A stretch of DNA of 64,000 bases, from NCBI RefSeq assembly GCF_963675165.1, contig NC_087388.1:3973047-4037046 (forward strand), read 5' to 3'. A model generated the notes under the pieces. The model worked only from the letters and a program-made list of their open reading frames with translations. It was not told the origin of the DNA and searched no databases. Below, piece by piece: positions 177 through 61,316 of the stretch (positions are counted from its first letter, which is position 1; each line of letters starts with the position of its first letter). Origin of the DNA: Halichondria panicea. Taxonomy: Eukaryota > Porifera > Demospongiae > Suberitida > Halichondriidae. The position numbers and the translations under genes were made by a program.

Positions 177-3100
177 ATGGCTGCACTTATTACTAAAGAC
201 TTGGATGAGCTAGTGGTGCTGGTAGAAGGCCTTGACCTGGAGGATAACAGAGCTGGTTCTGGTGCTTACGGGGTTGTCTTCAGAGTGACTGTGAAGGGGA
301 GAGAATGTATTGCCAAGAAGCTCCACAGTATCTTGCTCAAAGCTGGCGACTACTATCCAGTGGACCAGAGAGATTCCATTATTGAAAAGTTCCGCAATGA
401 GTGTCGTATTCTAAGTGGTCTGGAGCATCCGAACGTTGTAACGTTTATTGGAATCCACTATGGTCGAGACAAGAACGATCTTAGTCTGATCATGGAACGT
501 CTGCACACTGATGTAGCTGCTTTTGTTCAATCCCACCCTCAAACACCCATCGCTGAGAGAACTCATATTTTGTGGGATGTGTCAAAGGGCCTTCAATATC
601 TCCACTCGCTGACCCCTCCCCTCATACACCGTGACCTTACTGCTCCCAACATCCTGCTCACTGATGACCTGACTGCCAAGATAGGAGACTTGGGAGTATC
701 CAGATACGTGGACCTTGACGCATTGTCGAGGCTGCTAACGAAAGCTCCTGGAAACGTATACTACATGTCCCCCGAAGCAAGAGACGAGAATCCGCAGTAC
801 ACTGTCAAGCTGGACATTTTCTCCTTCGGTACTCTCATTATCCACACATTCATTGGCCAAGTTCCTGCTCTACATGATGTACCCTACAATCAGCAAGCTC
901 TAAAGCTCAGTGAAGAGGGAAAGATCGAGTTAACGAAAAGAAGAAGGGCTATTCAACAGATGACCACAGACCACTGCATGTATCCTCTCATTGTCCGCTG
1001 TCTCCATGACAAACCTGCTCCCAGACCAACTGCAGACGAAATGCACCAGTCACTGCAAGAGTTGTGTACGAGATACCCAACCAAGGTAATTCTATTCTTC
1101 GAGTGTTTGCTCTTTTAATATTAAAGTTTCAATAGGCGTTTCAAAAGGTGGAGATTAAGATTGCTCTAAGGCAGCGTCTAAAGGAAGGAGATACGTGGTA
1201 AGTATACTTATAGTAATTATGGATCGTTAAATAACAAGTTAAAATAATTCTCTAAACTGTACGGTACTTGGTTGGCTTTCAGTGGATGGAGCAATGGAAG
1301 AGGTATGTAGGATACAACGAACAAGCCTCTCCTGGTGATGGATCTGAAGCTGAAGTTGAAAATCCTGGAAAGATTAACAACAATGCTCTCCTGACAGGTC
1401 AGAGATCGTATTTAACTAGCTCTATAATAATGTTGTGATCCCTAATATAGGTGGGATTCTACGAGAGAATCTCACGGATAAAAATGACTATTTCCTCGTT
1501 CCGGAGTCAGCCTGGAACAAACTAGTCTCTTGGTATGGTATCTGCTCAAATTCGATCACAAGGTAGGTAATTACATACAGGTACATGTATACCCTTAGGA
1601 TTTTTGTTTCACATCAATTTTATCACTCATGCATGCAGGAAAGTTGTTCACGGGGGTCATGGCTTGATGGTGGAAGTCTACCTCCAAGTTCTCACCTTGA
1701 GTGTTTACCCTAACCTAAAAGAGATCAAGTGTAGAAAGTTCAGCCGTTTAGACACTATTGGTGAGTAATTGTGGCTTGTCACATTCTTTTAGTAAAGAAT
1801 CAGGATCCAGGGTAAAAACTGCCTGTATTGTTTGTCTGAGGGCAAAGGTTACAACAATTTGCTTGTTATTATGATCTGTAGATTCACTTAATGCTAGACT
1901 ACAGCCGAGAGTGTAATTGATCTAGCTAGCTCACGACTAAAAGCAATTATAAAATCCAGAGTGCATAGGTCAACTATTGCTGTTGCTGACTCAGCTTACA
2001 CATGTATTTTGTTCTTGTGCAATGTTATTTTACTGTCAGCAAACACTGCATGTTTTGTGTTTACTTTCCATTTATGTACGCCCACCCCCACTTTTGAGTG
2101 AAAGTTCCTGCATAGGCTAATTTGCCTCGTGAATTATTTTATCATAATTATATTATTTATTTATTTTTCATTATTTACAAATGACCTCTACTATAATATT
2201 GGACATAAAATGTGGACCTGTTTGTCCGTTATAAGAGGCGGTTTTGCATAGAGTTGGTAGTTGCAGAGGAGGTACGACTTGAGGCATGTGTGTCGTACCT
2301 CCTCTGGGTCAGTTGGGAGCACAAAACTTGTCCTCTGTCCGGAAAATCAAGAAAGTCAGCTTGTGGGAGGTTGTGTACTTAGGTAGTGATTTCAATCCGT
2401 GACATACATGTAGCTAGTGGCCTTTATGTTATGTTGTTCTAGTGGGAGGGTAGTTATGGGAGGTTCCACAGTAGCTACATGTAGATATACCTATTAGCAA
2501 GTATAAGAGGCAAGGACCATTCTGACAAGGAACAACCTTCTGATGCAGAATCTTCATATTGATGTACCGTATAGCGCGAAATTTTCGAGGCACTTATATT
2601 TCGTGGATTGGCCTCTAAAAGCCATTTCGTTGCACAATGTTCGCGGAATGACTGCTTACCGGAAGCCACGCCTTTAAATATTTGCACGATAGCAGGTAAT
2701 TCTAATTAAAAAACAATTTTCGTAGACTTAATTTTCGTGTAGAATTCTAACCCACAAAATCCGCGAAAATTAAGCCCCTCGAAAATTTCGCGCTATACGG
2801 TATTCAATGCTGGCAGGCCTCAGACGCAGACAGAAAAGACTTAATGGGTGAGCGTAATTTCGAGGCAAACACCTGGATGGGCTTAATTTTGATAACCATT
2901 TTCGTAATTAAGCCCATCCTACCTGTAGCTGCTTTGTAGCATGCGCATTAGGTGGGCGCGGTAAAGTACGGTATGCACTATAATTATGAAACTTCAAAGG
3001 TCAAATTGTGAGTAAAGTTCAAATAATATTTTCTAAGCCTCCCCCTCTTTCATTTTCTGGATTCGCCCCTGTTATTACCCGAGGCGCGCGTGGGCGGCCA

Positions 3101-6100
3101 CGGGTATAGTAGTCTGTTGGTTTGTTTGTGTATTCTGAATCTACTCACCTGGATATCACAGCACTGCGTTTACAGCATGGATAGTCTTCACACAACTAGT
3201 TATTAGTTTTAATAGTGGCAAATTTTGATGTTAAAGCTTTGTTGTCGAATAAGAATAAGAAGCTTGAACTTACACGTGGAGCTTGTGGGGTGCATGGAAA
3301 AGAAGGAAACGGAAAACGGAAACGACCATTACCATTCTGTATTTTTTGCAATAGTGAAAGTTGATAGCAGAAGATGTATTTGTAAAGGCAGGGGCGGATC
3401 CAGGGGTGATTTTGAGGGGCTGAAGCCCCCCCCTTTTGAAAAAACTACCATGTGTTGTAGTCTGACTCTACAACAATTTTGCCACCAATTACCGTATGCA
3501 TCTGTAGACTCACTTGAAATCACTTGAGAGATGCTAGACAACAGCTACTAGGAGTATAAAGGATCTAGGGTAGCTAGCTGGACGTACCTAGCTAGCTAGC
3601 TAGCTGTACGTACGTACGTACATCTGATCAATACAGTATCACCATAGTATTAAAAGTAAGTGCAGAGGTCAACGTATTCTACTCATTAATATGAAAGTTC
3701 AAAGGTCAAATCTTGCAAAAAAAATCACCTCTGGCGAGGCTGACCTGGGCGGCTCCACCGCCCTCGCACGGGGCTTCGCCCCTTTCTAGCTAGCTAGCCC
3801 CCCCCCTTTGTTTTTCCTCGATCCGCCCCTGAAAGGGGTGCTGTGGGGAAGCCTATCCATCTAGTCTAGCTATGACATTCAAGGAGCAACTAGGTAAGGT
3901 AGCTTGAGACAAGGGGGTGCTTCATGTTCACTTCATTCACTCAATCTCATCAGTACAGTGCTTTTATGCTTTCATGTTCACTTCACTCTCATCAGTTTAA
4001 TTATCATTCTGTGTTTTAAATTGAATATATAAATCAATAAATAAACATGAGAGTGAACATGAAGCAAGTGAAGTAAAAACCGAAAACCGGACAAGTACAA
4101 GGCTACCATGCAGTTCTGTTAGATGGCTAGGTTCAGCCATTGCAGCTGTATCTCAGGGTCTTACTCTCCAACATAATTACAATCTTGTGTAAGGTTCAGC
4201 CATCAAGTTGCCATGCAATGTTGCAGCACAGTCCATGTTTTGCAAGGGTCTTACTTCTCCATACAATCTTGCCTGACGTCATCTGTTACTTGCGAAAGCT
4301 GGATGTATTCAGTTCTCAGACTCTGGCCTCCTATACTGCTTTCCATGTACTCAACTTTCATATCAGTCAAACAGGTTCACTTCATTCACTCTGATCGACC
4401 AGGGGCGTAGGAAGCATGCTCTGGAGCACCCCTTGTCTCAAGCTACCTTATCTTGTTGCTCCTTGAAGCTAGATAGATTAGATAGGCTTCCTACAACTCA
4501 GCTCTACTATCCATATTCATATTCATGTCAAAAAACACAGAATGGTAATGGTCGTTAACTTTACACAGCTGAGATATTTCCGTTTTCCGTTTCCGCTTTC
4601 CGCCTTCCGTTTCCGTTTTCTGTTTCCTTCTTTTCCATGCACCCGAGCTTGTGGGCCTTTAGTACTTGCAGATGAAGTGATCCCGTACCAAGAACAATGG
4701 AAAAGGGGTCACTACAATAGAAAGCTAGAATTGTGACTGGATGTTGTCTCTGTTAGCTAGCTGACTCTGGGATCCTCTCCAGGAGCCATACTTCTCTGAG
4801 ACTCCAGGCTTCTTTGCTGTGATCCTAGTCCACAATGCATATATCTATGTACCACTAAAACTCTGTTCTCTATTGTTTCAGCATGTCTCTCCCTCTAGCT
4901 TTGTAGTCTGGTTTAGTCTGAGTCGCTGTGCTAGACAGCTCAGTCACTACCTAGTTCTTCTGGTTTCTTTGTAATCATGTCACCAGCCGAGGGTTTGCAC
5001 TTTAGTGCTCTATTTATTATACACACGACGTCATTATTTTGTCTTGCAGCCAGTCTGATGCAAGGCACTAAAAAGGAATTTGGGATACCTGAAAAAGTGG
5101 ATTGCCGTACACACTGCTATGTAAACAGTACTTTCAGGCTGCTTTCTAATGACAGTGAAACCATTCAGAAAAAGGGCGTTTTTGAAGATCAGGTGCATGG
5201 CTAAATTATGTTCGTATTAATTATATCAATGTTTGCATAATTATAGGGTACTGACACTGTCATCCTTGTATTGGAAAAGCAGAATGATGATGGGACATGG
5301 CCACAAGTCAGCTCGTGAGTGCAAAGCAACTTAGTATTTTGAATTAACACTTTAACTTTCATTAAAGCCCGCAACGTCAAAAGTTGGAGATAGAGGCAGC
5401 TCTTGAACAGAAGCTTAGAGCAGGCGAGAGCTGGTAAATCTCATTTATGTAGTAAGGTGTATGATTATACTGGCTTAATTGTGTGTTAGGTTTCTAGTTG
5501 ATGCTAACTGGATGAAAAAGTGGGAAACATTTGTTTCTATTTCCCTGATTGACAGTATGAAAAGGAGTAAACCTGGCCCTGTAGAAAACTCACAGTTATT
5601 CAAAGGTTAGTATATTATATAATAACATGTAATATAATTTTATATCTCGTTTATAGACAGTGATATGAGGCTGTATGACAACCTGATGGGCGGTTTAGAC
5701 TACACACTGGTACCAGAGTCAGCATGGAACAAGTTGCGCTTCTGGTATGGTCTGAGTCCACAGTCAACGGCTATATCCAGGTGAGTATAAGTATCACGTA
5801 CTGTACCTTATCTAAATATGCATCGTATAGGCGAGTGGTTGAGTGTGGTCCACTTGTAAGTGATTGTTTTGTGGAAGTTTATTTACTCAAGCTTAAGATG
5901 TGCGTACACCCACACCTCGAAAATGTCAAGACAAGGAAGTTTAGCAGAGCTGACACTGTTGGTGAGTATAGATGGTTAATTGATACATAATTATAATGAC
6001 GTAGCTAATTAATCAACGGTTGTTTCCATCCATGCACTCTAGGTGATTTAGAAGCTGCAATTAGACAGGCGTTTAGTATTCCCCGGAGTATTGACTGTCA

Positions 6101-8402
6101 TATTAGCTGCCAAACACTCAAAACCCTCTCTAAAAGTGACTCATTGCTGGGAGCAGGTCTACATTCTGGACAGGTTTGCTTAGAATAAATTTCATAAATA
6201 TTTTATTAATTTTCATTAGAAAATTGTGCTGTCATCCATAGCGACTCAGAGGAAGGAGATGCAAACCACACTGAAACACCAATTAAAGAATGGAGACCTA
6301 TGGTATGAGAATTCTAAAACAATAACTGTGTGTATGTATGCCCCACTTTCCTGCAGGTACCTAGTGGACATTCGCTGGATGAAACAATGGAAAAAGTATG
6401 TTGGTTACGACACGTGGGATCAGTCATCAGTCGGCAAGGAGTCTGCAAACCCAGGGCCTCTGGACAACTTTAACCTGTTCAAAAGTAAGTGTCCATATAT
6501 TGTAAAGCTCTTACCGCGAGTCTTAGACCATACTTGTGAATCGAGTCAAACATTACAAAGTGTTCCCACAGATGGTTGTCTTCGTGAGGACCTGATGGAT
6601 GAGTTAGACTACTATCTTCTCCCCAAGTCAGCTTGGAACAAACTAGCATCTTGGTACGGCCTCAGTCCAGAGTCAAAGGCCATCTCAAGGTGGTGTTATA
6701 ATTATATTGATACGACATTGTTTAGATCTATTGGTCAACCACAGGCGGGTGGTTGAGTATGGACTGTACATGAAGCACTGCAGAGTGGAGGTGTATCTGC
6801 TGGAATTTAAACTTTGTGTACACCCTAACCTCAATGATATCAAAAAGAGGGAGTTTAGCAGAGGTGACACTGTCGGTGAGTACATTGTATTTCGAGACAA
6901 TGTTAGTGTTTGTAAAGACAGTATTGTGCATGTGATTATATAGGTGCTGTACATGTACATGTTGTAGTTTATGTTCATGGAATCCATTGTGTATCGAATT
7001 GTGAAACAAATTGCCACCCACAGGTCGCGGTTAAATTAATCTTTTAATAAGTTAAGCACATTCGTAATCACATGGTTAGCATACTCTGAGCACTAAGGCT
7101 TGCATCAGTTATATAGTCTCGCGAGTGCACGCATTTTTGGGAGGGAATAGCTGCTAATAAATGCACCTGGTTTGATAAGTTAACGAATATTTTGCACGTG
7201 ACTACATTCCTCAGTACAACAGAATCAGCAATAGTGACCAGACGTTCCCTTCCCCGCTCGCGAGACTACATCAGTTGCATGTCTTACACTCCCACTCTTT
7301 TATTGTGAGTGTTGATGTATTATGCATTCACAGCTGATTTGGAGTCTGCTATTAGAGAGGAGTTTGGTGTCCCCCCAGCCGAAGAGTGCAGAGTGTGGCA
7401 TCGCTACATGACACACACCTATGAGCTATTGTCAAAAGCTGACCAATGTCTGCAGGATGCTGGACTCTACAATGGGCAGGTATAAGCAGTCATCAACATT
7501 TCATGCAATTTCCCTGCTTGTAATACCTGGTTTCGAATGCAAGCTTTTTCGATTGTGAATTAAAAGTAGATTGCAAACGAAAGACACGCAAAGAGTGAGC
7601 ATGCATGAGCATGCAATTTGTATAGTGAAAAATGCAATAGGGCTGGTACAGTACTATAGCCTTGTGAATGCTGGATATTTTTCCGTTGATTTACTGAGCA
7701 TACACGTTGTTATCCTGCGTTAGCCGGTATCTGGCTAATGATTAGCGCATGTGCAAGCAGTCGATACCAGGCCCACTCTTCGAGGAAGTGCGGCCTGGGA
7801 TCGGATTAATTCGAAACCCAGTATAATTATATAAAGTTACATGACTGTACATAGCTAAGTTCAGAATCTTTTGCTTGTCAATTATTGATGACATTAATTT
7901 TGATCAAACTTTGTTTCCCAGACCATCCTCTTGGAGATGAAGAATAAAGATGGGTCATGGCCAAGAACCACCTCGTAAGGCAGCGTTTTATCTGCTTTAT
8001 GTTTTACATTCATTGATGCAGTGTTGTTCGTCGACGATTGCGTTCTAGTGACGACATCTAAAGTGTGAAGTAATCAAAAACTAGAGTGGATTCTTCTTAC
8101 CTATTTTATTTTTCTCCATTCTTTTCGTGGCGCAAGTCTGTACTACATCAGTTTTACATAAATTTTTTATCTGTGTACAGTACATAGTATGAGAAGTGAA
8201 GTGGAAGTGCGGCCTGGGATCGAGGCTATTACTCTGTATGCAAGGCTCATTATTTTGCTAACTGGTGGGTGGGGCTCAATCCTCCCTCTCTAGGCTTGTC
8301 AAATTTATAGCTGGCTTCCTTTTGTGCAGGATTGTTGACAAGAGACCGTTTAGATCTACAGAACACATCTGTGTGGTGGTTCTCAGTTTCAACTTCAAAT
8401 AA
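177..8402 (+). CDS. Protein kinase with three DUSP-UBL modules, copy A (probably impaired)
   Basis: Nineteen exons can be read: 177-1085, 1136-1197, about 1263-1397, 1451-1562, 1639-1760, 5050-5192, 5247-5314, 5368-5433, 5490-5605, 5657-5780, 5831-5961, 6043-6173, 6220-6302, 6357-6484, 6572-6689, 6745-6875, 7334-7479, 7922-7974 and 8330-8402. Exon 1 is the kinase domain, with a Gly-rich loop, HRDLTAPN catalytic loop, DLG in place of DFG and a SPE motif. The rest encodes three DUSP plus UBL modules like those of USP4/USP15, with no USP protease domain. The acceptor of exon 3 is damaged (ACGG where copy B has ACAGG). Retaining intron 2 gives TGG-TAA at once, leaving a kinase-only protein of about 324 residues. 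The last exon ends 3 nt before the SSUH2 start codon. The kinase exon keeps mostly silent changes, so a truncated product may still be made. Confidence 0.8.
1198..1263 (+). other. Intron 2 of copy A with destroyed 3' splice site
   Basis: Copy B reads CTGTACAG then GTACCTGG at 15291-15306. Copy A reads CTGTACGGTACTTGG at 1257-1271, so one A is missing and no AG remains at the junction. The next AG, inside the former exon (CTTTCAG ending at 1281), would shift the reading frame. The intron opens with TAA in the exon frame, so retention gives an immediate stop after the Trp codon. Confidence 0.8.
2264..2306. repeat. Perfect 15-bp hairpin
   Basis: CAGAGGAGGTACGAC at 2264-2278 and its exact reverse complement at 2292-2306 flank a 13-nt loop. 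It lies in intron 5 of copy A. It could be the tip of a small inverted-repeat transposon. Confidence 0.7.
2565..2802. mobile_element. MITE, CCGTATAGCG family, subtype I
   Basis: Terminal inverted repeats start CCGTATAGCGCGAAA and end with the complement TTTCGCGCTATACGG, flanked by TA on both sides. The interior carries TTTTCG/CGAAAA-rich arms and no ORF. Relatives lie at 17075-17286 and 25713-25888; subtype II copies are at 41114, 47593 and 52877. Confidence 0.8.
3389..3831. mobile_element. Non-autonomous element with CAGGGGCGGATCC termini
   Basis: The left end CAGGGGCGGATCCAGG and right end CTCGATCCGCCCCTG are imperfect inverted repeats, and a GAGGGGCTGAAGCCCCCC palindrome lies near the left end. 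No ORF. A related copy lies at 16745-17443 in the same intron of the duplicate gene. Confidence 0.6.
6876..7333 (+). other. Intron 16 of copy A
   Basis: This 458-nt intron holds no coding sequence I can support. It is largely shared with 19933-20395 of copy B, apart from small indels such as the doubled ACATGT motif near 20007-20022. Confidence 0.6.
7480..7921 (+). other. Intron 17 of copy A (empty insertion site)
   Basis: A 442-nt intron without coding potential. The stretch AAAGAGTGAGCATGCATG near 7588-7606 is uninterrupted; copy B carries a 581-bp transposon at the same point. A fragment with a CGGCCTGGGATCG motif near 7791 belongs to the same repeat family. Confidence 0.7.
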
Positions 8403-8405
8403 GCC

Positions 8406-8928
8406 ATGGACAACCAACCCCTCCTTGCCATGGTCCCCAGTACAACCAGCCTCAGGGTGGCTACTCTCCCCCTCAGGCACAGCAACCTACTGGTAAGTTA
8501 AACAAAAACTGCCAGATAGCTATTATATTAATGTGCATGTATGAGGTTATTTTGTAAATTGCACTCTAGTTGAGATGTTTTATGTGAAATCAATCGAAAT
8601 GGTTTCTGTACATGTGCTATATTATTATAGTCTGCTTCGTAATTGTGTGATCAACTGGTCTATAGATCTATGGAATAAATTACCGTTATGTCGTAATAGA
8701 AAAAGCATTCGTACATGTACATGGCATGCAAAGGGTCTATCTAAATTCCATGCACTGTGGATTGCTAATACCAATGTCATGCTCACACTCCCAGTTCCCC
8801 CTCCCCCAGGCCCTCCAGCCGCTGGCCCCCCTCCTGGACAAAACTTGCCTGGAGAGGATGTGCACGAGAATGCAGGCGCCGAAGCTCCTCAACCCTCTGC
8901 CCCTGACGCCTCCAAGATGGACTATGTG
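8406..8928 (+). pseudogene. SSUH2: Truncated, frameshifted SSUH2 copy
   Basis: Exon 1 (8406-8492) and part of exon 2 (8810-8928) match the intact gene at 22100-22181 and 22519-22637. Exon 1 has five extra bases (GCCAT near 8427) relative to copy B, which shift the frame, and the shifted frame then stops at the junction with the Penelope-like element. Exons 3-10, with the whole zinc-binding region, are absent. Splice sites of intron 1 are still present. A functional SSUH2 product is not possible. Confidence 0.85.
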
Positions 8929-10970
8929 ATGAACCCATTCTAGAAGCTTACATAGACACAACAAAGAACTCCTTGAATGACCAATTACCGGCACTTTTTC
9001 AAGCAACAAAAACGAATCTCCCTAAAAAACAAAAAATCGCAAAAAACAGTTTCGTAAAAAATAGAGCTGCACTCACAATCAAACCAGCAGATAAAAACTT
9101 GGGTATAGTGATCATGAACACCAGAGACTATATACAAATATGTGCATCCCAATTAGCGGACACCAATACATATGTACAAGTAGACACCTTCCCAGCCACA
9201 ACAATCCACCGAAATCTCCAGAACACACTAATTGAGCATTCAAGAGTACTGAAACCTCATAAAAACCTCCACAATTTTCTTCTACCGCAACCAAATAAAA
9301 CACAGACACCCAAATTCTATGGTATACCAAAAATCCATAAAAAGTTCACCAGCCTACCACCAGTCCGCCCAATAGTATCCCACTCAAACTCGCTACTAGC
9401 ACCAACGGCCAAGTTTATCGATCACGTCCTTCAACCTCTCGCCCGATCACATCAAGACTCCCTTCTCAACTCCAGCTCTCTCCTTCGTATACTCCAATAT
9501 ATGCATATCCCAGACGATGCCTTTTTGGTCACAATCGATGTAGAAAGCCTCTACCCATCAATTCCGCAAAAAGAATGCCTAGAAATCATCTACGAAGAAA
9601 TGCACGCCAAAAAACATCTACTCCTGTTCGATCCGAACCTATTTATTAAACTGCTGCACACCAATGTCACTTCGAACTTTTTCGAATTTGGGCCCATCAC
9701 CTTTAAACAAGTCAAAGGGACAGCGATGGGAGCTGCTTTCTCACCCACCATTGCAAACATCTTTATGTCCATCATTGCATCCCAGCCCAAAAAACCACAC
9801 CTCCTAAAAAGGTACATAGACGACATTTTTATCATTTGGGAACACTCCCTAGAAGACCTACTAAATTTCCTCTCAGCACTCAACTGCTTCCATGCAACAC
9901 TGAGATACACGTGGACATTCTCCAAAACATCAGCCGATTATTTAGATATAACCATCTTTAAGGGTCTCGCTTTCCCAGCAACAAACCTGTTAGACACAAA
10001 AACGTTCCAAAAAACTCAAAACTTATACCAATACCTACACTTCAATTCATGTCACCCAATGTCAACATTCAAGGGCCTCATAATAGGAGAATGCATAAGA
10101 TACGTAAGAATTAATTCGTCAAAGGACAACTATCTAGCGACCCTAGAACAGTTCAAACAAAGGCTATACAAAAGACAATATCCCACAGCGCTCGTCAACA
10201 AAATAACTCAAAAAATCAATCACGAACAAAGACGGAACTACCTGAAAGAACCCACCATCGCAAATATCTCGAAGCCAAAACCAACTTTTAAGTGTCTGCC
10301 TCCACCACACTATAATGCTCTAAAGGCAATCATCCTACAACATTATCATATGGTTCAGAGATTTGCACCAAGACCTAGATTTATTCCTCTAAGGCACAAA
10401 AAACTCGGAGAAGACCTAATTCGTGCAAAAATATACCCCACAGATGAACAATTCGTTGACATGGTACTCACCACCAGCCAAGAGTTCCACAGCCTCAACA
10501 GCACATAGCACAATGCTACAAGGCCAACACTACGCCCGTGTGAAACGTCAACCAAAACTTGTAAAAACATCAGATGTGCCACCTGTCAACACCTAAACTG
10601 TGATACTCACTTCCGTAGTACCACCAACGGAAGGACACACCCTATCAGACGATCTTTCACATGTAAATCATCCAACGTTATCTACCTGATTACTTGCAAA
10701 AAATGTAAAAAACAATACGTCGGTCTAACAACAAAACAACTGAATTATAGAATCTGTAGACACCGATCCAACATCACCCATAATCAACCCATCTACATTA
10801 GCAGACATTTCAATTTCAAGGATCATAATATACACCACCTCGCCGTACAAGCAATAGACTAAGCAGATAATCTAGAAGAACTAAAAAAGCTTGAACGCTT
10901 TTGGATTCTCACATTAGATACTGTTGTTCCAAAAGGTCTAAACGTAACTATCGGCCACGGTGCATTGTAA
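8929..10970 (+). mobile_element. Penelope-like element, reverse transcriptase plus GIY-YIG, 5' truncated and stopped
   Basis: The frame starting at the junction with SSUH2 (8928/8929) encodes a reverse transcriptase with KPADKNLG, FYGIPKIHK, the motif-A Asp (TIDVESLYPSIP), KGTAMGAAFSP and YIDDIFIIW, in the order seen in Penelope-like elements. In the same frame, after a TAG at 10506-10508, comes a Cys-rich segment (CKNIRCATC) and a GIY-YIG endonuclease start (VIYLITCKKCKKQYVG), then a TAA at 10860-10862 and the final stop at 10968-10970. Two in-frame stops and a missing 5' part mean this copy is dead, although the frame is otherwise unshifted, so it is young. It sits in exon 2 of the copy A SSUH2 and marks the end of the duplication. 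The 3' boundary is not determined and may lie near 11.1 kb. Confidence 0.9.
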
Positions 10971-12867: not shown

Positions 12868-13887
12868 TTAACAAGTAAAGATATCGTAGCAATTACTCCA
12901 AAATATTTCAAAAGCAACACTAAAACAAGTAAAGGTGAAAAAACCTACTTGTGCACAACACTCGTCGTGTGTTTCACAGAAGTTGTGAACGCAGCAATCA
13001 CCACACACAAAACTCCAACAAAAGCAATCTGCGCCACACATCCCAAAACAAGCATTGGTGTATTTTTGATAGGGACACTGCCCTGCCCCACATTGAGCTC
13101 CGTTTGCCGGACAATTCACAGTCCTTCTCTGTCGCAGATTACTACTCTTACTTGAATGACTAGGCATTGTTGGAACAGTCTCTACACTAGCTTTTGCATT
13201 CGATAGCTTTAGAGCAAACACATAGAACCTCATTACAGCTTGAGAGTCCTCTCCTTTAATTCCAGTATTACCTAGGGCCAGGGCAGCTTCGATAATTAGT
13301 TTTGCTTGAGGACTCATTGAAAGGTTTTTCAGAGAATCATGGGATTTTTTGGCAACTGTCTTATTGTCCATCTTTTCAAGCATTTCAGTGGTCATATTCT
13401 CATAACCCATCATAATGGATTCCATTGTGTCTATGTTGCTTTCGGGAATAACGTATTCGTCATTAGGACCCTGTTTATTTTTCATCAAGAGAAAGGCTGT
13501 GCTATTCATTTCCATCATGATCATGGGTGATTCCCTCAGATGCACCATCATTATAATCAACTCACCATCTGCCGTGCTCACTATGTAGTAAAAGTGGGTG
13601 CCGTTCACTGTACTCTGGAAATGAATACCACCTTGGGCACCATAATACTCCCCTTCAAGCTTGTTATTTGAAACGAACACATTTTGAAGTCCAGAGACTT
13701 GTTGCTGCTGTGTGGTAGAGATTCCCACACCAATACTAATGGTCAGCACAGCTGTAATGAGCAGAGCTACACAGGTTAATATCAATACGGCCACGAGCAC
13801 TGGAGAGAGTTTGGGTTTCTTTGACTGAGGGGTGATCTCACGGTTAGGCTCGAAGTAGTGCTGGTGCTTGACCGAAGAAGAATCCAT
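12868..13887 (-). CDS. Type II membrane protein with furin-like site and PLA2-like Cys-rich domain
   Basis: A 339-residue single-exon frame. Residues 1-27 are polar, 28-56 form one hydrophobic segment with Lys before it (type II topology), and an extracellular region follows with five N-glycosylation sequons (N95, N128, N164, N175, N188). At 252-255 is RQRR, a proprotein-convertase consensus, immediately before a domain with 16 cysteines (259-339). This domain has a CFGMCGADCFCW stretch and CETHDECC at 304-311, resembling the Ca-binding/active-site helix of secreted phospholipase A2, where a His-Asp pair is catalytic. Cleavage would release the Cys-rich domain; that is an inference. The Gly-rich Ca loop of classical PLA2 is not obvious, so enzyme activity is uncertain. 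The gene lies between the duplicated blocks and reads away from kinase copy B; the two start codons are about 330 bp apart, so they may share a promoter region. Confidence 0.85.
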   Translation of the reverse strand: MDSSSVKHQHYFEPNREITPQSKKPKLSPVLVAVLILTCVALLITAVLTISIGVGISTTQQQQVSGLQNVFVSNNKLEGEYYGAQGGIHFQSTVNGTHFYYIVSTADGELIIMMVHLRESPMIMMEMNSTAFLLMKNKQGPNDEYVIPESNIDTMESIMMGYENMTTEMLEKMDNKTVAKKSHDSLKNLSMSPQAKLIIEAALALGNTGIKGEDSQAVMRFYVFALKLSNAKASVETVPTMPSHSSKSSNLRQRRTVNCPANGAQCGAGQCPYQKYTNACFGMCGADCFCWSFVCGDCCVHNFCETHDECCAQVGFFTFTCFSVAFEIFWSNCYDIFTC

Positions 13888-14085
13888 AGAATTAATCTAG
13901 ATCTAGATATAAACACGTCTATACCAAAAGTCTAAATCTGCAAAACTAGCTAGACCTAGAGCCTAGAGATGAACTTATTATTTATAGGTTGTTATTCTAG
14001 TTGTTATACACATCTTTTAACTTACTGTACAAACATGGGGCATGTGTATTGGGTGGGAGGATCTGGAACACAGCACAACAATTAA

Positions 14086-14213: not shown

Positions 14214-16048
14214 ATGGCTGCACTTACTAAAGACTTGGATGAGCTAGTGGTGCTGGTAGAAGGCCTTGACCTGGAGGACAACAGAGCTGGTTCTGGTGCT
14301 TATGGGGTTGTCTTCAGAGTGACTGTAAAGGGGAGAGAATGTATTGCCAAGAAGCTCCACAGCATCTTGCTCAAAGCTGGCGACTACTATCCAGTGGACC
14401 AGAGAGATTCCATTATTGAAAAGTTCCGCAATGAGTGTCGTATTCTAAGTGGTCTGGAGCATCCGAACGTTGTAACATTTATTGGAATCCACTACGGTCG
14501 AGACAAGAACGATCTTAGTCTGATCATGGAACGTCTGCACACTGACGTAGCTGCTTTTGTACAATCCCACCCTCAAACACCCATCGCTGAGAGAATTCAT
14601 ATTTTGTGGGATGTGTCAAAGGGCCTTCAATATCTCCACTCGCTGACCCCTCCCCTCATACACCGTGACCTTACTGCTCCCAACATCCTGCTCACTGATG
14701 ACCTGACTGCCAAGATAGGAGACTTGGGAGTATCCAGATACGTGGACCTTGACGCATTGTCGAGGCTGCTAACGAAAGCTCCTGGAAACGTATACTACAT
14801 GTCTCCCGAAGCAAGAGACGAGAATCCGCAGTACACTGTCAAGCTGGACATTTTCTCCTTCGGTACTCTCATTATCCACACATTCATTGGCCAAGTTCCT
14901 GCCTTACATGATGTACCCTACAATCAGCAAGCTCTAAAGCTCAGTGAAGAGGGAAAGATCGAGTTAACGAAAAGAAGAAGGGCTATTCAACAGATGACCA
15001 CAGACCACTGCATGTATCCTCTCATTGTCCGCTGTCTCCATGACAAACCTGCTCCCAGACCAACTGCAGACGAAATGCACCAGTCACTGCAAGAGTTGTG
15101 TACGAGGTACCCAACCAAGGTAATTCTATTCTTCGAGTGTTTGCTTTTTTAATATTAAAATTTCAATAGGCGTTTCAAAAGGTGGAGATTAAGGCTGCTC
15201 TAAGGCAGCGTCTAAAGGAAGGAGATACGTGGTAAGTATACTTATAGTAATTATGGATTGTTAAATAAAAGTTAAAATAATTTCTCTAAACTGTACAGGT
15301 ACCTGGTTGGCTTCCAGTGGATGGAGCAATGGAAGAGGTATGTAGGATACAACGAACAAGCCTCTCCTGGTGATGGATCTGAAGCTGAAGTTGAAAATCC
15401 TGGAAAGATTAACAACGACGCTCTCCTGACAGGTCAGGGATTGTATTAACTAACATACACATGTAGCTCTATAATGTTGTGATCCCTAATATAGGTGGGA
15501 TTCTACGAGAGGATCTCAAGGATATGAATGACTATTTCCTCATTCCAGAGTCTGCCTGGAACAAACTGGTCTCTTGGTATGGCATCTGCTCAAATTCGAA
15601 CACCATTACAAGGTACATGTAGATAATTACTTACATGTACATGTACCCGTAGGATTCTTGTTTCTCTTCATCAAAACACAAACACTTTTTACATGCTTGC
15701 AGGAAAGTTGTTCAGGGGGGTCATGGCTTGATGGTGGAAATCTACCTCCAAGTTCTCACCTTGAGTGTTTACCCTAACCTAAAAGAGATCAAGTGTAGAA
15801 AGTTCAGCCGTTCAGACACTATTGGTGAGTACAGTAGAACCTCACTAATCCGAATAGAGCCAGACCTCATTGGATTATTAACGGATGTCATTAATTGATT
15901 ATTAACGAAGACACTTTTGTAAATGTATTATGATATTACTGTGGCCAGAAGGGCTCTCTTCATTTTCTTTGCAGTGGCCATTGTTTGAGCAGTTTATTAT
16001 GCCTCGGTGCGCATGCGCAAGCGAGGTGTACGGTAGTGTGTTTGTGTG

Positions 16049-16091
<43 letters not shown>

Positions 16092-19000
16092 CTGTGTGTG
16101 TGTGTAGACTGCTACAGCTGCTCAAGGATGAATCAAGTGCAAGTAAGAGTTTCTATAGGCTTCCAGTCATGTTTACTTGAATTTTAATTCGTGGATTTGC
16201 AAAATAAATGCTTCGTTCTCGAGTTATGCTTAGTTTTGCTTACTTGGAATGCCATTGCAGCCTTTTCAGAAGAGCACTTAGCCAAACTTGTTTACCGAAT
16301 GTTGCTACTCTACTTAGTAGTTAGCTCTGCACTAGCTGCAAGAGTGAGAAGAGAGCTGCAAGGCTCTGCAGACAGCATCCATTAATTTTAGACTTGAACT
16401 TTTGGCATCGATCGTTTTTAACAGCAATCATGGTCAATCATTACCAACTCTTTGAGTTTGCATGCATGATTGGACTGAATAAAAGCAGCTTTATGTTATG
16501 TAGCTTTGGCATCTCCACCGAGGCATCAGCACCTGCGGTGCTTTCATTAATAAAATTATTGCTGATTCAGCAATGAAAGTTAGATTGCGCATGCGCAATA
16601 GTCTATTCTACTGACAGCCCCTCCTCTTTTTCAGTTTGCCGTATTTGCGAGGATTCGGACTAAAGAGGTCCGGATTAGCGAGGTTTTACTGTAATTGTGG
16701 CTGGCTTTTCACATTGTTTTAAAAGATGTAGGTAGCATCTAATACAGGGGCCAATCCAGAGGGTGATTTTGGAGGGCTGAAGCCCCCATTTTGTAAAAAT
16801 TACCTATGTATTTAGTCTGAGGAGGTTACAACAATTTTGACACCAACTTGTTATTATGCATCTGTATAGGTTCACTTGAGACTACAGCCAAGCGTATAAT
16901 TGATCTAACTACAAAACAAACCTCACAACATGCATGGCTAAGAGCAATTATAAATTCCGGAGTGCATAGGTCAACTATTGCTGTTGCTGAATCAGCTTAT
17001 TTTGTCCTTATTTAATACGGTCATAATGTGCATGCAGCAAACACTGCATGTTTTTGTGTGTTCACTTTCCTACGTACCGTATAGCGTGAAACATTCGAGG
17101 TGCTTCATTTCGCTGTTTTCGATGGTTAGCAATCATACATGAAAATTGTCTTGAACTGCTATAACGTTTAAATATTAAAAGCGTGGCCTGGGAATGCTTC
17201 CGGTAAGCAGTCAACTCAAAACATTTATTCAACAAAATGCTTTTTCCACAAAATTTGAGCGCCTCAAAATTGTGCGCTATACGGTATTCCACCATACACT
17301 CATTCATTCATTCATTGCGTAACGTGAAAGTTTGAAGGTCAAATTTTGAGGAAAGTTCAAAAATGAACGCCTCCCTCTAGTCGAACGGGGCTTCGCTCTT
17401 TTCTAACTAGCCCTCCCCCTTTTATTTTCTGGATCCGCCTCTGTAGTATTCGTTATAGTGGTATGTGGTTAATATACGTGTTATTGTACTGTTTATTACA
17501 TGTATACACACATGTTGCCATTATATTTTTCTTGCAGCCACTCTGCTGCAAGGCACTAAAGAGGAGTTTGAGATACCTGCTGAAGTGGATTGCCGGACCC
17601 ACTGCTATGTAAACAGTACTTTTAGGCTGCTTTCTAATGGCAGTGAAACCCTTCAAACATCGGGCCTGTTTGAAGATCAGGTGGCTGAATTTTGTTGGTA
17701 TAATTATGTGAATTACTATTGTTGCATAGAGTGCTACGGACACTGTCATCTTTGTGTTGGAAAAGCAGAATGATGATGGGACGTGGCCACAAGTCAGCTC
17801 GTGAGTGCAAAGCAACTTAGTATTTTGAATTAACACTTTAACTTTCATTAAAGCCCGCAACATCAAAAGTTGGAGATAGAGGCAGCTCTTGAACAGAAGC
17901 TTAGAGCAGGCGAGAGCTGGTAAATCTCATTTATGTAGTAAGATGTATGTACATGTATGATTACCTGCTGTTATCTTTTAATCGTGTGTTAGGTTTCTAG
18001 TTGATGCTAACTGGATGAGAAAGTGGAAAATGTTTGTTTCTGTTTCCCCGATTGACAGTACAAACCCTGGCCCTGTAGAAAACTCACAGTTATGCAAAGG
18101 TTATAGTTAGTGCAATAAAATTATATTATAATAGTAATAGTTATGATATAACTCTTTTATAGACAGTGATATGAGGCTGTATGACAACCTGATGGGCGGT
18201 GTAGACTATACACTGGTACCAGAGTCAGCATGGAACAAGTTGTGCTTCTGGTATGGTCTGAGTCCACAGTCAACGGCTATATCCAGGTGGGTATAAGTAT
18301 CACGTACTGTACCTTCATCTAAATATTCATCGTATAGGCGAGTGGTTGAGTGTGGTCCACTTGCAAGTGATTGTTTTGTGGAAGTTTATTTACTCAACCT
18401 CAAAATGTGCGTACACCCACATCTCGAAAATGTCAAGACAAGGAAGTTTAGCAGAGCTGACACTGTTGGTGAGTATAGATAGTTATTTGATACATACCGA
18501 CGTAGTGCTGCTATACATGCACATGTGTATATAATCCATGGATGGTTGTATAATTATGCACTATAGGTGAATTAGAATTTGCAATTAGAGAGGCGTTCAG
18601 TGTTCCCCGGAGTACTGAATCTCGTTGCCCAACACTCAAAAGCAAAAAGCTCAACCCCAACCGCTCATTGCTGGAAGCAGGTCTCCATTCTGGACAGGTT
18701 TTGTTTGAGAGCATTTCCTAGATTTAAAAATAAATGCGGTTTTTTTATAGACAGTGCTGCTACTAACTGTGCCACCATCTTTAGAGACTCAGAGGATGGA
18801 GATTCGAACCTCACTAAAACAGCAATTAAAGAATGGAGACATCTGGTATGAGAATTATAAACAATAACTTTGTCTGTAATATGCCTTAACTTTCCTGCAG
18901 GTACTTAGTGGACATTCGCTGGATGAAACAATGGAAAAAGTATGTTGGTTACGACATGTGGGACCAGTCGTCAGCTGGCAAGGAGTCCGCAAACCCAGGG

Positions 19001-22000
19001 CCTCTGGACAACTCTAACCTGTTCAAAGGTGAGTGAGTGAGTGCTCATACTGTAAAGAACAATTCAGACAATTCAGAAGAATTCAGACCGCCCACGGGTA
19101 TAGTAGTCCATTGGTTTGTTTACCTGGAGCCTATAGCTCTGCGTTTACAGCATGAATAGCCTTCACACAACAAGTTAAGTGGCATATTTTGATGTTAATA
19201 AAGCCTTGTTAAATTTGCACATGTAGCCAACGTGGTACGTATTTACAGCTGAAGTGATCCTGTACCAGGAACAATGGAAAAGGGTCACTAAAGTAGAAAG
19301 CTAGAATTATGATTAGGGTTGTTGCTTCTTTATCCCTAGTACCAGGAGCCGTATTTCTAAGACTCTAGACTTCTTTGTTTACTTATTTTGCTGTGATCCT
19401 AGTCCAGAGTGCATGTCTCATCCACACTAAAGCACCGTTCTCTAAAGTTTCAGCTAGCCTCTAGAGTCTATAAAATGTCATTGCTCGTGTTACTTGCTAC
19501 TTAGCCAGCTTCCATGCTTCATATAATACTGCATTATTGTATTCATGTAAACAGCCGAGGGTTAGCACTTCAGTGCTCTAGTTTAGTTGTTAGTCTTCAA
19601 ACATTATGAAGTGTTCCCACAGACGGTTGTCTTCGTGAGCACCTGATGGATGAGTTAGACTACTATCTTCTCCCCAAGTCAGCTTGGAACAAACTAGCAT
19701 CTTGGTACGGTCTCAGTCCAAAGTCAAAGGTCATCTCAAGGTGGAGTTATATATGTATATTTATTGATACGACATTGTTTAGATCTATTGGTCAACCACA
19801 GGTGGGTGGTTGAGTATGGACTGTACATGAATCACTGCAAAGTGGAGGTGTATCTGCTGGAATTTAAACTGTGTGTACACCCTAACCTAAATCATATCAA
19901 AAAGAGGGAGTTTAGCAGAAGTGACACTGTCGGTGAGTACATTGTATTTCGAGACAATGTTAGTGTTTGTAAAGACAGTATTGTGCATGTGATTATATAG
20001 GTGCTGTACATGTACATGTACATGTATGTAGTGTTATGTTCGTGGAATCCATTGTGTATCGAATTGCGAAACAAATTGCCACCCATAGGTCGCGGTTAAA
20101 TTAATCTTTTAAGCACATTCGTAATCACATGGTTAGCATACTCTGAGACTAAGGCTTGCATCACGTTATAATTATAGTCTCGCGGGTGCATGCATTTTTT
20201 GGGAGGGAACAGCTGCTAATAAATGCACCTGGTTTGATAAGTTAACGAATATTTTGCACGTGACTACATTCCTCAGTACAACAGAATCAGCAATAGTGAC
20301 CAGACGTTCCCTTCCGCGCTCGCGAGACTACATCAGTTGCATGTCTTACACTCCCACTCTTTTATTGTGAGTGTTGATGTATTATGCATTCACAGCTGAT
20401 TTGGAGTCTGCTATTAGAGAGGAGTTTGGTGTCCCCCCAGCCGAAGAGTGCAGAGTGTGGCATCGCTATATGACACACACCTATGAGCTATTGTCAAAAG
20501 CTGACCAATTTCTGCAGGATGCTGGACTCTACAATGGGCAGGTATAAGCAGTCATCAACATTTCATGCAATTTCCCTGCTTGTAATACTCGGCAAGCTTT
20601 TTCGATTGCGAATTAAAAGTAGATTGCAAACGAAAGACACGCAAAGAGTGAGCTAGCCTCGATCCCAGGCCGCACTTCCCACTTCACTTAGGGAAGTGGG
20701 CCTGGTATCGACTGCTTGCGCATACGCTAATATCCCCCCGGTATCTGGGGGCTTTGGATAACATCGTATATGCTCAGTAAAACTATGACATCACAACGAA
20801 CGGAAGTGGATTGAAGGAAGTAGATAGAAAGTTCTATTGAAGGTTTCGGATAGCATTCTCTGATAGCTACCCTTAGCCTGCTATGTTAACAAAAGACTCA
20901 CAGCCTGCAACAGTGTGGATGACGATCGTCTGAAAGGAGTGAAAGCTGACAAGAGCCTATATGGACAGGCCACGCCCATTTAACACTAACTTTGGTGAAA
21001 GTCTACTATACTACTGCTACTGTTCTATCAGAAGAAAATAGCAGTACAACAAACCTACACAGCTCTGTCTCTAGCTAGCTAGCTATATAGCTCTGTGTAT
21101 GACTTTTAAGATATTTTCTCTGATGAATCCAGTATTATAGGAAATTTTATGGGAAAAAACATCCAATAATTTGGCGCATGCGCAAGCAGTCGATAGCAGG
21201 CCTTCTTTCCTATGAAGGCCGGTGAAGGAGGCTAAGAGTGAGCATGCATGAACATGCAATTTGTATAGTAAAAAATGCAATAGGGCTGGTACAGTACTAT
21301 AGCCTTGTGAATGCTCCAAATTATTGGATATTTTTCCCGTTGATTTACTGAGCATACACGTTGTTATCCTGCGTTAGCCGGTATCTGGCTAATGATTAGC
21401 GCATGCGCAAGCAGTCGATACCAGGCCCACTCTTCGAGGTAGTGCGGCCTGGGATCGAGGCTAGTACAGTACGTGTCATTCGCAAATGATTAATTCGAAA
21501 CCCAGTATATATAAAGTTACATGACTGTACATAGCTAAGTTCAGAATCTTTTGCTTGTCAAAATTGATGACATTAATTTTGATCAAACTTTGTTTCCCAG
21601 ACCATCGTCTTGGAGGTGAAGAATGAAGATGGGTCATGGCCAAGAACCACCTCGTAAGGCAGCGTTTTATCTGCTTTATGTTTTACATTCATTGATGCAG
21701 TGTTGTTGTCGATGCACGATGATTGCGTTCTAGTGACAATCTAAAGTGTGAAGTAATCAAAAACTAGAGTGGATTCTTCTTACCTATTATATTTTTCTCT
21801 TTTTGTGGCGCAAGTCTCTATAGCTGTACTACATCAGTTTTACATAATTTTTTTGTCTGTGTACAGTATACATAGTATACTATATATATGAGAGGGAAGT
21901 GCGGCCTTGGGATCTAGGCTATTACTCTGCATGCTCATTATTTTGCTATAACTGGTGGGTGGGGCTCAATCCTCCCTCTCTAGGCGTGTCAGATTTATAG

Positions 22001-22185
22001 CTGGCTTCCTTTTTTTTTGCAGGATTGTAAATAAGAGACCGTTTAGATCTACAGAAGCACATCTGTGTGGTGGTTCTCAGTTTCAACTTCAAACAAGCCA
22101 TGGACAACCAACCCCTCCTTGGTCCCCAGTACAACCAGCCTCAGGGTGGCTACTCTCCCCCTCAGGCACAGCAACCTACTGGTAA
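14214..22185 (+). CDS. Protein kinase with three DUSP-UBL modules, copy B (intact)
   Basis: Exons: 14214-15119, 15170-15231, 15299-15432, 15495-15612, 15703-15824, 17538-17680, 17730-17800, 17854-17919, 17993-18099, 18163-18286, 18338-18468, 18567-18697, 18751-18845, 18901-19028, 19623-19740, 19802-19932, 20396-20541, 21601-21653 and 22023-22185; the phase closes through all of them (about 982 aa). Residues 1-302 form a kinase domain: Gly loop 26-34, Lys near 46, HRD 150-152, Asn157, DLG 170-172, SPE 197-199, of tyrosine-kinase-like type. DUSP modules lie at about 305-447, 520-661 and 712-862, with repeated Trp-rich starts ([10 protein letters not shown] type), [15 protein letters not shown] and VEVYL motifs. 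Each is followed by a UBL. All three modules have an intron at the same Trp codon, showing internal exon duplication. There is no USP catalytic domain. The start is set by homology to copy A; an upstream in-frame Met at 14001 is in unconserved leader. The last exon overlaps SSUH2 exon 1 in another frame, so the C-terminus is the least certain part. Confidence 0.85.
15832..16691. mobile_element. Pogo/Tigger-like non-autonomous element with TA duplication
   Basis: The element starts CAGTAGAACCTCACTAATCC and ends with the near complement GGATTAGCGAGGTTTTACTG, flanked by TA on each side. Copy A still has the unoccupied site: GTGAGTAATTGTGG at 1761-1774 against GTGAG-TA-element-TA-ATTGTGG here. 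It contains a GT microsatellite and no transposase I can recognise. Confidence 0.85.
16033..16106. repeat. GT microsatellite
   Basis: About 74 bp of mostly TG/GT repeats with a few interruptions, inside the 860-bp element in intron 5 of copy B. Confidence 0.9.
16745..17443. mobile_element. Element with CAGGGGC.. / ..GATCCGCCTCTG ends, containing a nested MITE
   Basis: It is related to the repeat at 3389-3831 and to about 1801-3072 in copy A. A CCGTATAGCG MITE (17075-17286) is inserted within it. No coding sequence is seen. Confidence 0.55.
17075..17286. mobile_element. MITE, CCGTATAGCG family, subtype I
   Basis: Ends CCGTATAGCGTGAAA and GTGCGCTATACGG, with flanking TA. It sits at a different point from the related element in copy A intron 5, so the insertions were independent. 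Confidence 0.75.
19029..19622 (+). other. Intron 14 of copy B with interspersed repeat
   Basis: The matching intron in copy A is only 87 nt. The extra sequence, about 19083-19590, is a repeat beginning near CCCACGGGTATAGTAGTC and ending near CAGCCGAGGGTTAGCACTTC. A longer copy interrupted by other elements lies at 3085-5011, and part of it lies near 40240. No ORF of note. Confidence 0.6.
20542..21600 (+). other. Intron 17 of copy B
   Basis: A 1,059-nt intron that exceeds its copy A counterpart (442 nt) mainly because of the 581-bp transposon at 20654-21234. The remainder aligns with copy A. No coding exon is seen. Confidence 0.7.
20654..21234. mobile_element. 581-bp TAGCCTC element with 9-bp target duplication
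   Basis: The element begins TAGCCTCGATCCCAGGCCGC and ends GGTGAAGGAGGCTA. AGAGTGAGC is repeated directly on both sides (20645-20653 and 21235-21243). Copy A has the empty site with AGAGTGAGC once. A second copy of exactly the same length lies at 56289-56869. A 9-bp duplication fits Mutator-like elements; no transposase is encoded. Confidence 0.85.
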
Positions 22186-27636: not shown

Positions 27637-30600
27637 CTATAGGGGGGGTGTTGCCACATCATAAGGCTTTATATGAGTAACTTCATCACGTATAAATCTA
27701 ACAGTCATTGGTTGTAATTTCTTGTCCATACTAGGAAAAAATCTAATTTCTAAGGAAATTTTCTGTAGTGGCGTTGGTGGTGGGCCAGATGGTGGTGTTA
27801 AGAGCATTGCCTTTGGATGAGCAACAAGCTCCAATTTCTTTTTCTTCTTCTTTTTCTTCTTCTTTTTCTTCTTCTTTTTGGACTTTTTCTTTGTCTTAAT
27901 TTCGTCAAGCTTTGTATCATTGCCATATGCTGTTTGAACTGTTGGTTCTAGTATTTCGCTCTGGAAGGTATCCCTCTGCTGTAAATCAAGGTTGTTGTCC
28001 ATTTTACCCACTTGACCATGATCTGCTGACCCAAATCCTGCTTTACGGTCTTGTTGGCCTTGATCACAGTTAGAAACCCTTGCTTGTTTGTTATTTTCTG
28101 ATACACTAGTCATTGAAAGGTCTGTGATTGTCTGAGTTGAAGCTTTTTTGACAGCACTAGATAAAGCAATTTTGCTGGCTTTAGCAATACCTTTGAGGCT
28201 GCGTTTCACTGTATAATGCACTGCCATTCTAAGTTTCTCATGCAATTGCTGATGAATAAATCGTAATAAACAATCTTCAATTTCTGTGGCTTTGCGTTCA
28301 ATGAGGTTTGCGTCAATATCTTCAGCTTGACGGACATACTCATGTAAGTTGAAGTCTCCTTTGAACAAATCAAGCAGAGCAACCGTGGCTCCTCCTAATT
28401 TTACGCCTGCATTTACCACAGAGATAGCCTTGTTTGCATAATAGGCCACCTTTGCACCTTTGCTAAGCAAACGTACAGTTGTGGAATTACTATTTCCTAG
28501 ATTTTCAGCAATACGTTTGTAGTTAAATTGCAACGAAGACACAACCTGTGATCGTATTAAATCAAATTCAGCTGGTAGTAAGGTATTCATACCTAAAGAA
28601 GTCCTCATATTGCTAACAATCCTCTGACATTTGCTGTGAAATTCATCATCACTGTTCACTTGCTGGGCTAGATTCTTTAATCGGGAGTGAAGTCCTTCCC
28701 TACACTTGGATATGAGACGTTTCTCAATTGATTCGATTGTAGCATGCACAACACGTTCCTGAATTTCTTCTAAAACTACATCTGAGATATAAGTGGTGGC
28801 AGCATAAAATACAAACTTTTTGGTTGCTCCAGCTGTAGCTTTAATGAACACCGAGAAAGGAGTTGCAGATCCTAACTTTGAAACAATCTTCACAGGACTA
28901 GCAAGAGCACTAATTCCACCAGTTGCAATAGTCAGAGCTAAGCTGATAGATTTGTGTATGGCATAGTCTTTCCAAGTGAATGTTCCAGTTAATCCAGCCA
29001 TAGTGGCGTACACCATGTCATTTACTCCCTCTGCAATAAGCGCACTACCAATGCTGGCAGTAACACCAAGACTTATCAAGGCAGCTCCACCAATTACCTG
29101 TGCCATACCAAGTGTAGCACAGGCAAATGCATTCCAATCCCAATATCCTTTGTCAGCTTGTTCAATTGACAGAAATTGATCCATATGCCATGCAGCAAAG
29201 AAGGCCAGCTCCTCGGGAATTTCTTCTGGACGATCTGGAAGGTCATTAAAGTCCACAAAGTCCACTTGCATTTTTCTTTCAAATTTCCGAATTTCCCCTT
29301 GTAAACGTCCAAGTATTCGTACTATAAAATCAACTCGGAAAGGTGAGTATTCCTTTCCTAGCGATGTAGCAATAGCATGCTGAAGTTCTTTACCAACACC
29401 ATACTTGTGCTGAACAAGCTGGCCAGATTTCAGAATGTCCTGCTCTTGTAAAAAAGCATGCATTTTCTTAGCTTCAAATGCTTTGTTTCCATATGGTAAC
29501 ATGTACTCCAGCAAAAAACAATCTTCATTTTGCTGACAATACTCAAAGAAACACAATAGGTAGCTGCGCAGTGTTTGCTTGTGTCCTTTATTGTACATGT
29601 AACAGTTTTCATACTTTCCAAGCTCAAGGCTTTCCATCATAATAACGCTATCTTGCTTAAGTAATCCTTTCTTGGTGCTTGTGCACAGCTTTTTTCCTTC
29701 CAAGTAAACAAGAAACTCCTTATACGTATTTGTACGTTCATCATCCCAAGGTAAGTCAATTCGATCAGTTTCAAAGGAGCTCTTAAATTCATTCCATATG
29801 TTGAGACTATCATCTTCCAATGTTGCTGAATCTACCTTGCTAGCAAAAATTACTCGCACGTTTACTGAGGTCTCCAATAATGGACTTATGATGTCCCACA
29901 ATTCATCAGAACTGTTCACAAGACCAATCAAATCACTTTCGTTGATAACGGGTTTATTTAAGACTAGTTTGATTAATGCGACAGATACTTGCTCATCAAC
30001 CTTTTCGAGTATAAGTTTCTTTATAACAGTTTCGTTTTTCCAATATTTTCTAACTTTGTTGTGACAAATGAAGCCTAAGGTGACCAACTTGTGGTAAATT
30101 GTTTTGGACTGCTCTTCTGATATCTTCTCCTCCGTAAGTGCTGATTCATTCACAAACGAATGCTCATCAATTATATTGCCCAACAGTAATTCCACCGTAT
30201 GAAGATGTAAGCCAAGGACTTTCATCTTCTCTTCAACTTGATGAGTATAGCAGTTTTCATCATCATGAATATACTGGCTAACATCAATCATTTCAATAAG
30301 CTTTGTGCCTACCTCAGCATTTACCATCAGTGTTTGCTTTAAGGACGTTAAATGAGTTCTAGCCTTTTTCAAGTAACGTCGAGCTTGTTTCATATTAGTT
30401 TTACTAGCATCAGGGTTAAGTTTGATGAAGCAATAACATGATGCCATTGCAGGAAGTCCAGTTAAATCACCACTTTTTTCTGCATGTTCAAAACAGGCTA
30501 GGGCTGTGGCATGTAAATGCTGACTTTTAATGTTGTTTCCACTAGGACTCTCAGTAATATCTCTGAGGAGAGCAATCCCTAATGTGACATAGCTCTCTGG

Positions 30601-39647: not shown

Positions 39648-39699
39648 AATGTCTGAAGTATCACCAGGAGTTCCAAATATTTGTTCTTCTGAAAAATGA

Positions 39700-61293: not shown

Positions 61294-61316
61294 GAGAAAT
61301 GAATGTAACTACTGCT

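Follow-up and report, generated by a model that had tools for sequence, protein, structure and literature searches.

A putative fused gene joining a protein kinase to three USP4/15-type DUSP-UBL modules in the sponge Halichondria panicea

The deubiquitinases USP4, USP15 and USP11 carry an N-terminal DUSP-UBL pair. The DUSP-Ubl of human USP4, supplied in trans, speeds the release of ubiquitin from the USP4 catalytic domain (PMC4243247), and E3 ligases and SART3 are bound by the DU domains of USP4/15 (PMC6333900). The accessible portion of a study of USP4/15/11 evolution, in which Amphimedon serves as the outgroup, makes no mention of a kinase fusion (PMC4624187). Moreover, no report of a kinase-DUSP or kinase-USP fusion was found in the openly licensed literature. 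The gene considered here, which lies in a window (the whole stretch of DNA that was analysed) of 64,000 nucleotides from Halichondria panicea, is composed of known domain families throughout, but we have not seen their combination described.

The initial annotation had claimed an 18-exon reading frame joining a kinase to three DUSP-UBL pairs, and such a frame is indeed present. Splicing the 18 exons at 17 GT-AG introns (14214-21653, forward strand) gives a single stop-free frame that translates into 929 amino acids. Exon 1 (14214..15119, +) holds the whole TKL-type kinase domain and is followed by a phase-0 intron of 50 bases. By Pfam and the gene model, module 1, which is diverged, occupies exons 2-7 (15170..17800, +), module 2 spans exons 8-12 and runs into exon 13 (17854..18783, +), and module 3 takes up the remainder of exon 13, continuing through exon 18 and one further base (18784..21654, +). 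We consider that the kinase-DUSP-UBL gene predicted from this sequence is most likely a real fused gene.

In the Pfam search of the whole protein, the kinase is matched by PF07714 at residues 24-292 (E 4.8e-36), with PF00069 matching as well. The glycine loop, beta-3 Lys, alpha-C Glu, HRD, DxG and APE-type motif, which mark an active kinase, are all present, with HRDLTAPN standing where HRDLKxxN is usual. The kinase motifs are intact, and the domain may be catalytically active. Among the best 60 of 220 matches to solved structures, TNNI3K, IRAK4 and CTR1 lead, followed by MET and others; the kinase is called TKL-type after the group to which these leading matches belong. Searches of viral and genome contig collections with the kinase query gave 23 pattern matches in each, none of which was confirmed.

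Profile searches also bear out the assignment of the tail to DUSP and USP UBL families. Three stretches of the whole protein match DUSP (E 1.1e-60) and three match Ubiquitin_3 (E 3.1e-50), and when modules 1, 2 and 3 are tested singly all three exceed both Pfam cut-offs, with scores of 77.3, 68.1 and 75.1 bits for DUSP (PF06337; cut-off 29.3) and of 39.4, 42.2 and 95.6 bits for Ubiquitin_3 (PF14836; cut-off 24). Module 3 aligns with the solved USP15 DUSP-UBL at E 1.9e-78, and structures of USP15 and USP4 are its best matches. The ubiquitin-protease domain said to be missing by the initial annotation is indeed not seen: UCH is absent among the 11 Pfam families listed (E up to 1) for the window protein, as is any ankyrin family. 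In addition, tblastn with the UCH of the sister gene described below and with part of the UCH of the ordinary USP4/15 gene detected no remnant of that domain anywhere in the window (best E 0.32), and on this search the idea that a lost UCH remains within it is rejected.

The amino acid identity of the three modules to the module of the genome's ordinary USP4/15 gene, which lies on the same contig, is 49% for module 1, 51% for module 2 and 82% for module 3; synonymous divergence between module 3 and the ordinary gene is near-saturated (dS 2.7). Intron positions recur across the modules, and the exon lengths of module 3 (128-118-131-146-53) are those of the ordinary USP4/15 gene, which indicates that the intron plan was inherited from a USP gene. 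The earlier view that a shared intron position reflects duplication inside the gene thus stands in so far as the plan is common to the three modules, but the source of the plan is the USP4/15 gene itself and not only internal duplication. Modules 1 and 2 are joined only weakly (47/55) in a module tree of 10 rows that carries a long-branch warning. We also compared the residues implicated in USP4 activation (M24, R40, F51, 88-92, E134 and Y136, USP4 numbering). In the alignment, module 3 keeps R40, D89-E90-L91-D92, E134 and Y136, and has Leu at M24, Tyr at F51 and Met at I88, all three of which are identical in the ordinary gene. Module 1 has Q40, K88, M90 and N91, and module 2 has N40, V51, G89, G90 and V91, with E134 and Y136 being kept in both.

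The end of the gene requires a change to the initial annotation, which had placed it at 22185. Exon 18, the last exon of the gene model (21601-21653, +), ends in CCACCTC|GTAAGG, a usable donor that, when left unspliced, reads TCG-TAA and so supplies an in-frame stop. The ordinary USP4/15 gene has an intron at exactly this place. When exon 18 is spliced to an exon at 22023..22181 (+), the frame stays open through that exon in the copy beginning at 14214, but a 1-base indel shifts the same splice product of the tandem copy into a stop. The exon also holds the ATG of the next gene (22100, MDNQPLL...) and is probably outside the kinase-DUSP gene. On these grounds the TAA made from the old splice donor (21655..21657, +) is the most likely stop of the frame, which puts the end of the gene at 21657 and leaves the exon near 22.1 kb to the start of the next gene; the end at 22185 is set aside as unlikely even though the splice stays open in one copy. 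Elsewhere in the window, two overlapping giant open frames of 2239 and 1821 amino acids occupy 27637-39779 on the reverse strand. The 2239-residue frame matches SecA DEAD-like (E 7e-31) and SecA P-loop (E 3e-8) families in Pfam, the motor of a bacterial-type translocase in an animal genome, and the 1821-residue frame, in which Gly-rich stretches are seen by eye, has no Pfam family at E 0.001. A Tectonin-domain protein (Pfam Tectonin, E 7e-45), the N-terminus of which looks like a signal peptide by eye, is encoded at 60535-61308 (-).

The kinase-DUSP gene is duplicated in tandem within the window, a feature on which the initial annotation is silent. The second copy (177..7974, +) follows the same 18-exon plan, with counterparts of all 18 exons, but the AG of its exon 3 acceptor is gone, CG standing at 1262-1263, and from this loss the tandem copy is probably damaged. 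None of the seven indels between the copies that fall in exons departs from a multiple of three, as against 18 of 23 in introns (14 of the 17 introns were compared; introns 5, 14 and 17 were excluded because their lengths are too different). Only one nonsynonymous change accompanies 12 synonymous ones in the kinase (dN/dS 0.024), and the corresponding ratios are 0.36 for module 1 (bootstrap interval up to 0.69), 0.88 for module 2 (0.56-1.48) and 0.49 for module 3 (up to 1.03); no pairwise value for a module exceeds 1. The frame-keeping indels and these ratios together argue that the frame has been under selection. The kinase shows the strongest constraint; module 2 shows little or none and looks relaxed. 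Downstream of the tandem copy the same neighbour gene begins, and a reverse-transcriptase frame (RVT_1, E 7e-10 in Pfam; 8907-10505, +) that appears Penelope-like by eye is inserted in it.

Searching the animal's own genome (131 Mb, 39 contigs) gave 14 DUSP matches that fall into six loci, and a kinase exon stands in front of the DUSP in three of the six, namely the two window copies and a sister locus. At the other three (L016, L017 and L018), tblastn detects no such kinase in the 9.9 kb read at each, and UCH matches are found in each of the same stretches. A silicatein-like pattern, tried as a sign of a sponge genome and written with one of the two serine codon sets, gave 0 matches, which carries little weight. 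The sister locus (C12:4345706-4354700, assembled from L015:4207-9901 and L030:1-3300) is on the same contig at a distance of 358 kb. Its gene model has 21 exons with GT-AG introns and encodes 1088 amino acids up to a stop, with a kinase, DUSP, Ubiquitin_3 and a complete UCH in one frame, each above its Pfam cut-off. Intron 1 is GT-AG and phase 0 in all three kinase-DUSP genes; each window copy has an intron 1 of 50 bases, and that of the sister is 74 bases long. Alignment to the solved USP15 shows that the catalytic box GNTCFMNS has become GNTSFMNS in the sister UCH, the codon being TCA versus TGC in the ordinary gene. The segment around the USP4 switching loop is altered as well (APQF to ASQL). 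Retained features are GHYTA, which is the His box, FDDS and the CxxC pairs; over the first part of UCH, identity to human USP15 is 49% over 180 positions for the sister and 64% over 181 for the ordinary gene. With serine in place of the catalytic cysteine, the sister protein probably represents a naturally occurring pseudodeubiquitinase joined to a kinase.

Comparison of the window gene with the sister gives dS 0.80 and dN/dS 0.18 for the kinase, and dS 0.75 and dN/dS 0.25 for window module 3 against the sister's module. The near-equal dS values suggest that kinase and module were already together when the two lineages separated, so that a single fusion probably preceded both genes and is older than their split. 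In the history that we propose, a kinase exon whose relatives have ankyrin tails would have been placed in front of a DUSP-UBL-UCH gene in one fusion, the modules deriving from a deubiquitinase gene of the USP4/15 type in the animal's own genome. One descendant would then have retained UCH with a dead cysteine, and the window lineage would have lost UCH, come to end at the old splice donor and held two further diverged modules. The sister may be the ancestor-like form or may derive from a triple-module gene by deletion; the matching exons of modules 1, 2 and 3 resemble its exon 2 to almost the same degree (40, 38 and 39 of 62 bases). In a tree of 14 kinases taken from the 134 matching stretches, 3 of 10 inner branches are starred and the sister kinase has no firm place.

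These 134 stretches of the genome, some of which are pieces of one copy, match the kinase exon and form dense clusters on contigs C10, C17, C1 and C3, with others on C8 and C13. We read the tails of 11 of these loci (L023-L028 and L031-L035). Ankyrin repeats follow the kinase exon in six of them (L023, L024, L031, L032, L033 and L034), where a single open frame chosen by eye at each locus matched Pfam Ank above cut-off. At four kinase loci on C17 no ankyrin tail was seen within 1500 bases and no fusion partner was found there, and the tail of L035 appears coiled-coil-like by eye, its frame being without a Pfam match. Wherever it was read in the ankyrin loci, the splice donor that follows the kinase has the same position and phase 0, which indicates that the kinase exon has exchangeable tails, with DUSP-UBL among them. 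A fourth kinase copy of the group (C12:3952268) lies 20 kb upstream of the window. Its kinase frame is broken by a TGA, and frameshifts are present; its locus (L022, C12:3950768-3954643) gave no DUSP match in the genome search and just decayed DUSP traces in the 1500 bases past the kinase. Of the group's four kinase copies, two therefore look damaged, namely the tandem copy and the one at C12:3952268. In the window, a single-exon frame of 342 amino acids (12871-13896, -) without a Pfam match at E 0.001 has, by eye, a single probable membrane segment and a C-terminus rich in Cys (CCVHNFCETHDECC). A similar gene begins immediately upstream of the L022 kinase, so the 342-residue gene and the kinase gene were probably duplicated together.

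As to function, module 3 would dock on partners, or on the catalytic core, of the ordinary USP4/15 enzyme. The docked kinase might then phosphorylate proteins handled by that enzyme, or it might act on the enzyme in trans as a modulator or competitor. Having drifted from the docking surface, modules 1 and 2 would probably bind something else or serve as spacers. The initial annotation had raised competition with a USP15-like enzyme, a suggestion that is plausible and gains from the existence of an ordinary USP4/15 gene and from the 82% identity of module 3 to its DUSP-UBL. Taken whole, the explanation that combines a fused gene, one fusion history and a module 3 that docks the kinase on the USP4/15 network is held tentatively, at a little short of an even chance. 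With regard to a conserved partner, the Pfam model of the SART3-associated region gave no match in the sponge's own genome, but also none in 14 controls. It is possible, though on balance rather unlikely, that the modules are instead general peptide-binding domains that bring the kinase to new substrates unrelated to USP4/15. Modules 1 and 2 are just 49-51% identical to the ordinary module and have lost some of the USP4-activation residues, and the DUSP-UBL of USP11 is known to bind short peptide motifs (PMC13376213). Module 3 speaks against such a purely scaffolding role, since it shares 82% of its residues with the ordinary USP module and retains most residues of the activation surface.

A broader and more speculative reading, which we regard as improbable at present, is that this kinase branch reads the state of USP4/15 or of ubiquitin into phosphorylation, as a kinase and pseudodeubiquitinase system that is possibly a decoy-based immune sensor. 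If so, the sister USP may bind ubiquitin without cutting it, and the window genes would supply tripled docking modules. Integrated decoys of such a kind are known from plants but are not known from sponges. The specific proposal that kinase and copies of a ubiquitin hub form an immune sensor, in which microbial attack on USP4/15-like modules is turned into a kinase signal, is less probable again. In its favour, the sister joins the kinase to a UCH that resembles a bait, with Cys replaced by Ser and an altered switching loop. IRAK4 is among the solved structures that the kinase resembles, and the kinase comes from a large clustered family (134 matching stretches). Kinase and ubiquitination genes of Halichondria panicea also respond to LPS (PMC8242945). 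Strong purifying selection on the kinase, and the fact that no module has a pairwise dN/dS above 1, argue against this sensor.

Slightly less probable still is a chance fusion of little function that is now being lost. The tandem copy without one of its acceptors, the frameshifted further copy and the dN/dS near 0.9 of module 2 would fit decaying duplicates, but the 18 exons of the copy at 14214 are open in frame, none of the seven exon indels is off-frame, and the kinase has a dN/dS of 0.024 between the copies and of 0.18 over the larger distance to the sister. Finally, the possibility that a kinase-only gene and a following DUSP-UBL gene have been misread as one is rejected as very improbable: an unspliced intron 1 would give a stop after 10 more codons, making a kinase-only form possible, but a 3' end and a promoter would hardly fit into an intron 1 of 50, 50 and 74 bases, and the same join is seen at three loci.

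Viewed against known systems, the window protein shares with USP4, USP15 and USP11 the domains of their N-terminal DUSP-UBL and the intron plan of the genome's own USP4/15 gene, but differs from these enzymes in having no UCH, three modules rather than one and an N-terminal kinase. It offers a natural setting in which to ask if a DUSP-UBL module functions when separated from its protease, and in what way a kinase may become connected to a deubiquitinase network. Like the window kinase, TNNI3K, its best match among solved structures, is without the Lys of HRDLK (HRDLN in the alignment); the other domains of TNNI3K, IRAK4 and other TKL kinases were not among the Pfam matches of the window protein, which has the DUSP-UBL tail instead. 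The sister gene has a kinase that is 78-79% identical to the window kinase and is spliced to DUSP-UBL at the same phase, but it has one module followed by a complete UCH with Ser for the catalytic Cys. In the laboratory, the Cys-to-Ser change is used to obtain a USP that binds ubiquitin and does not cut it, and the sister gene presents the same change naturally in a USP joined to a kinase domain. Kinase-ankyrin paralogues in this genome, with the layout of RIPK4 and ANKK1, have a single-exon kinase 60-66% identical to that of the window gene and, where it was read, the same donor place and phase 0, but their next exons encode ankyrin repeats where the window gene has DUSP-UBL. These relatives, whose tails lie past the same phase-0 intron, make the family a good case of tail exchange.
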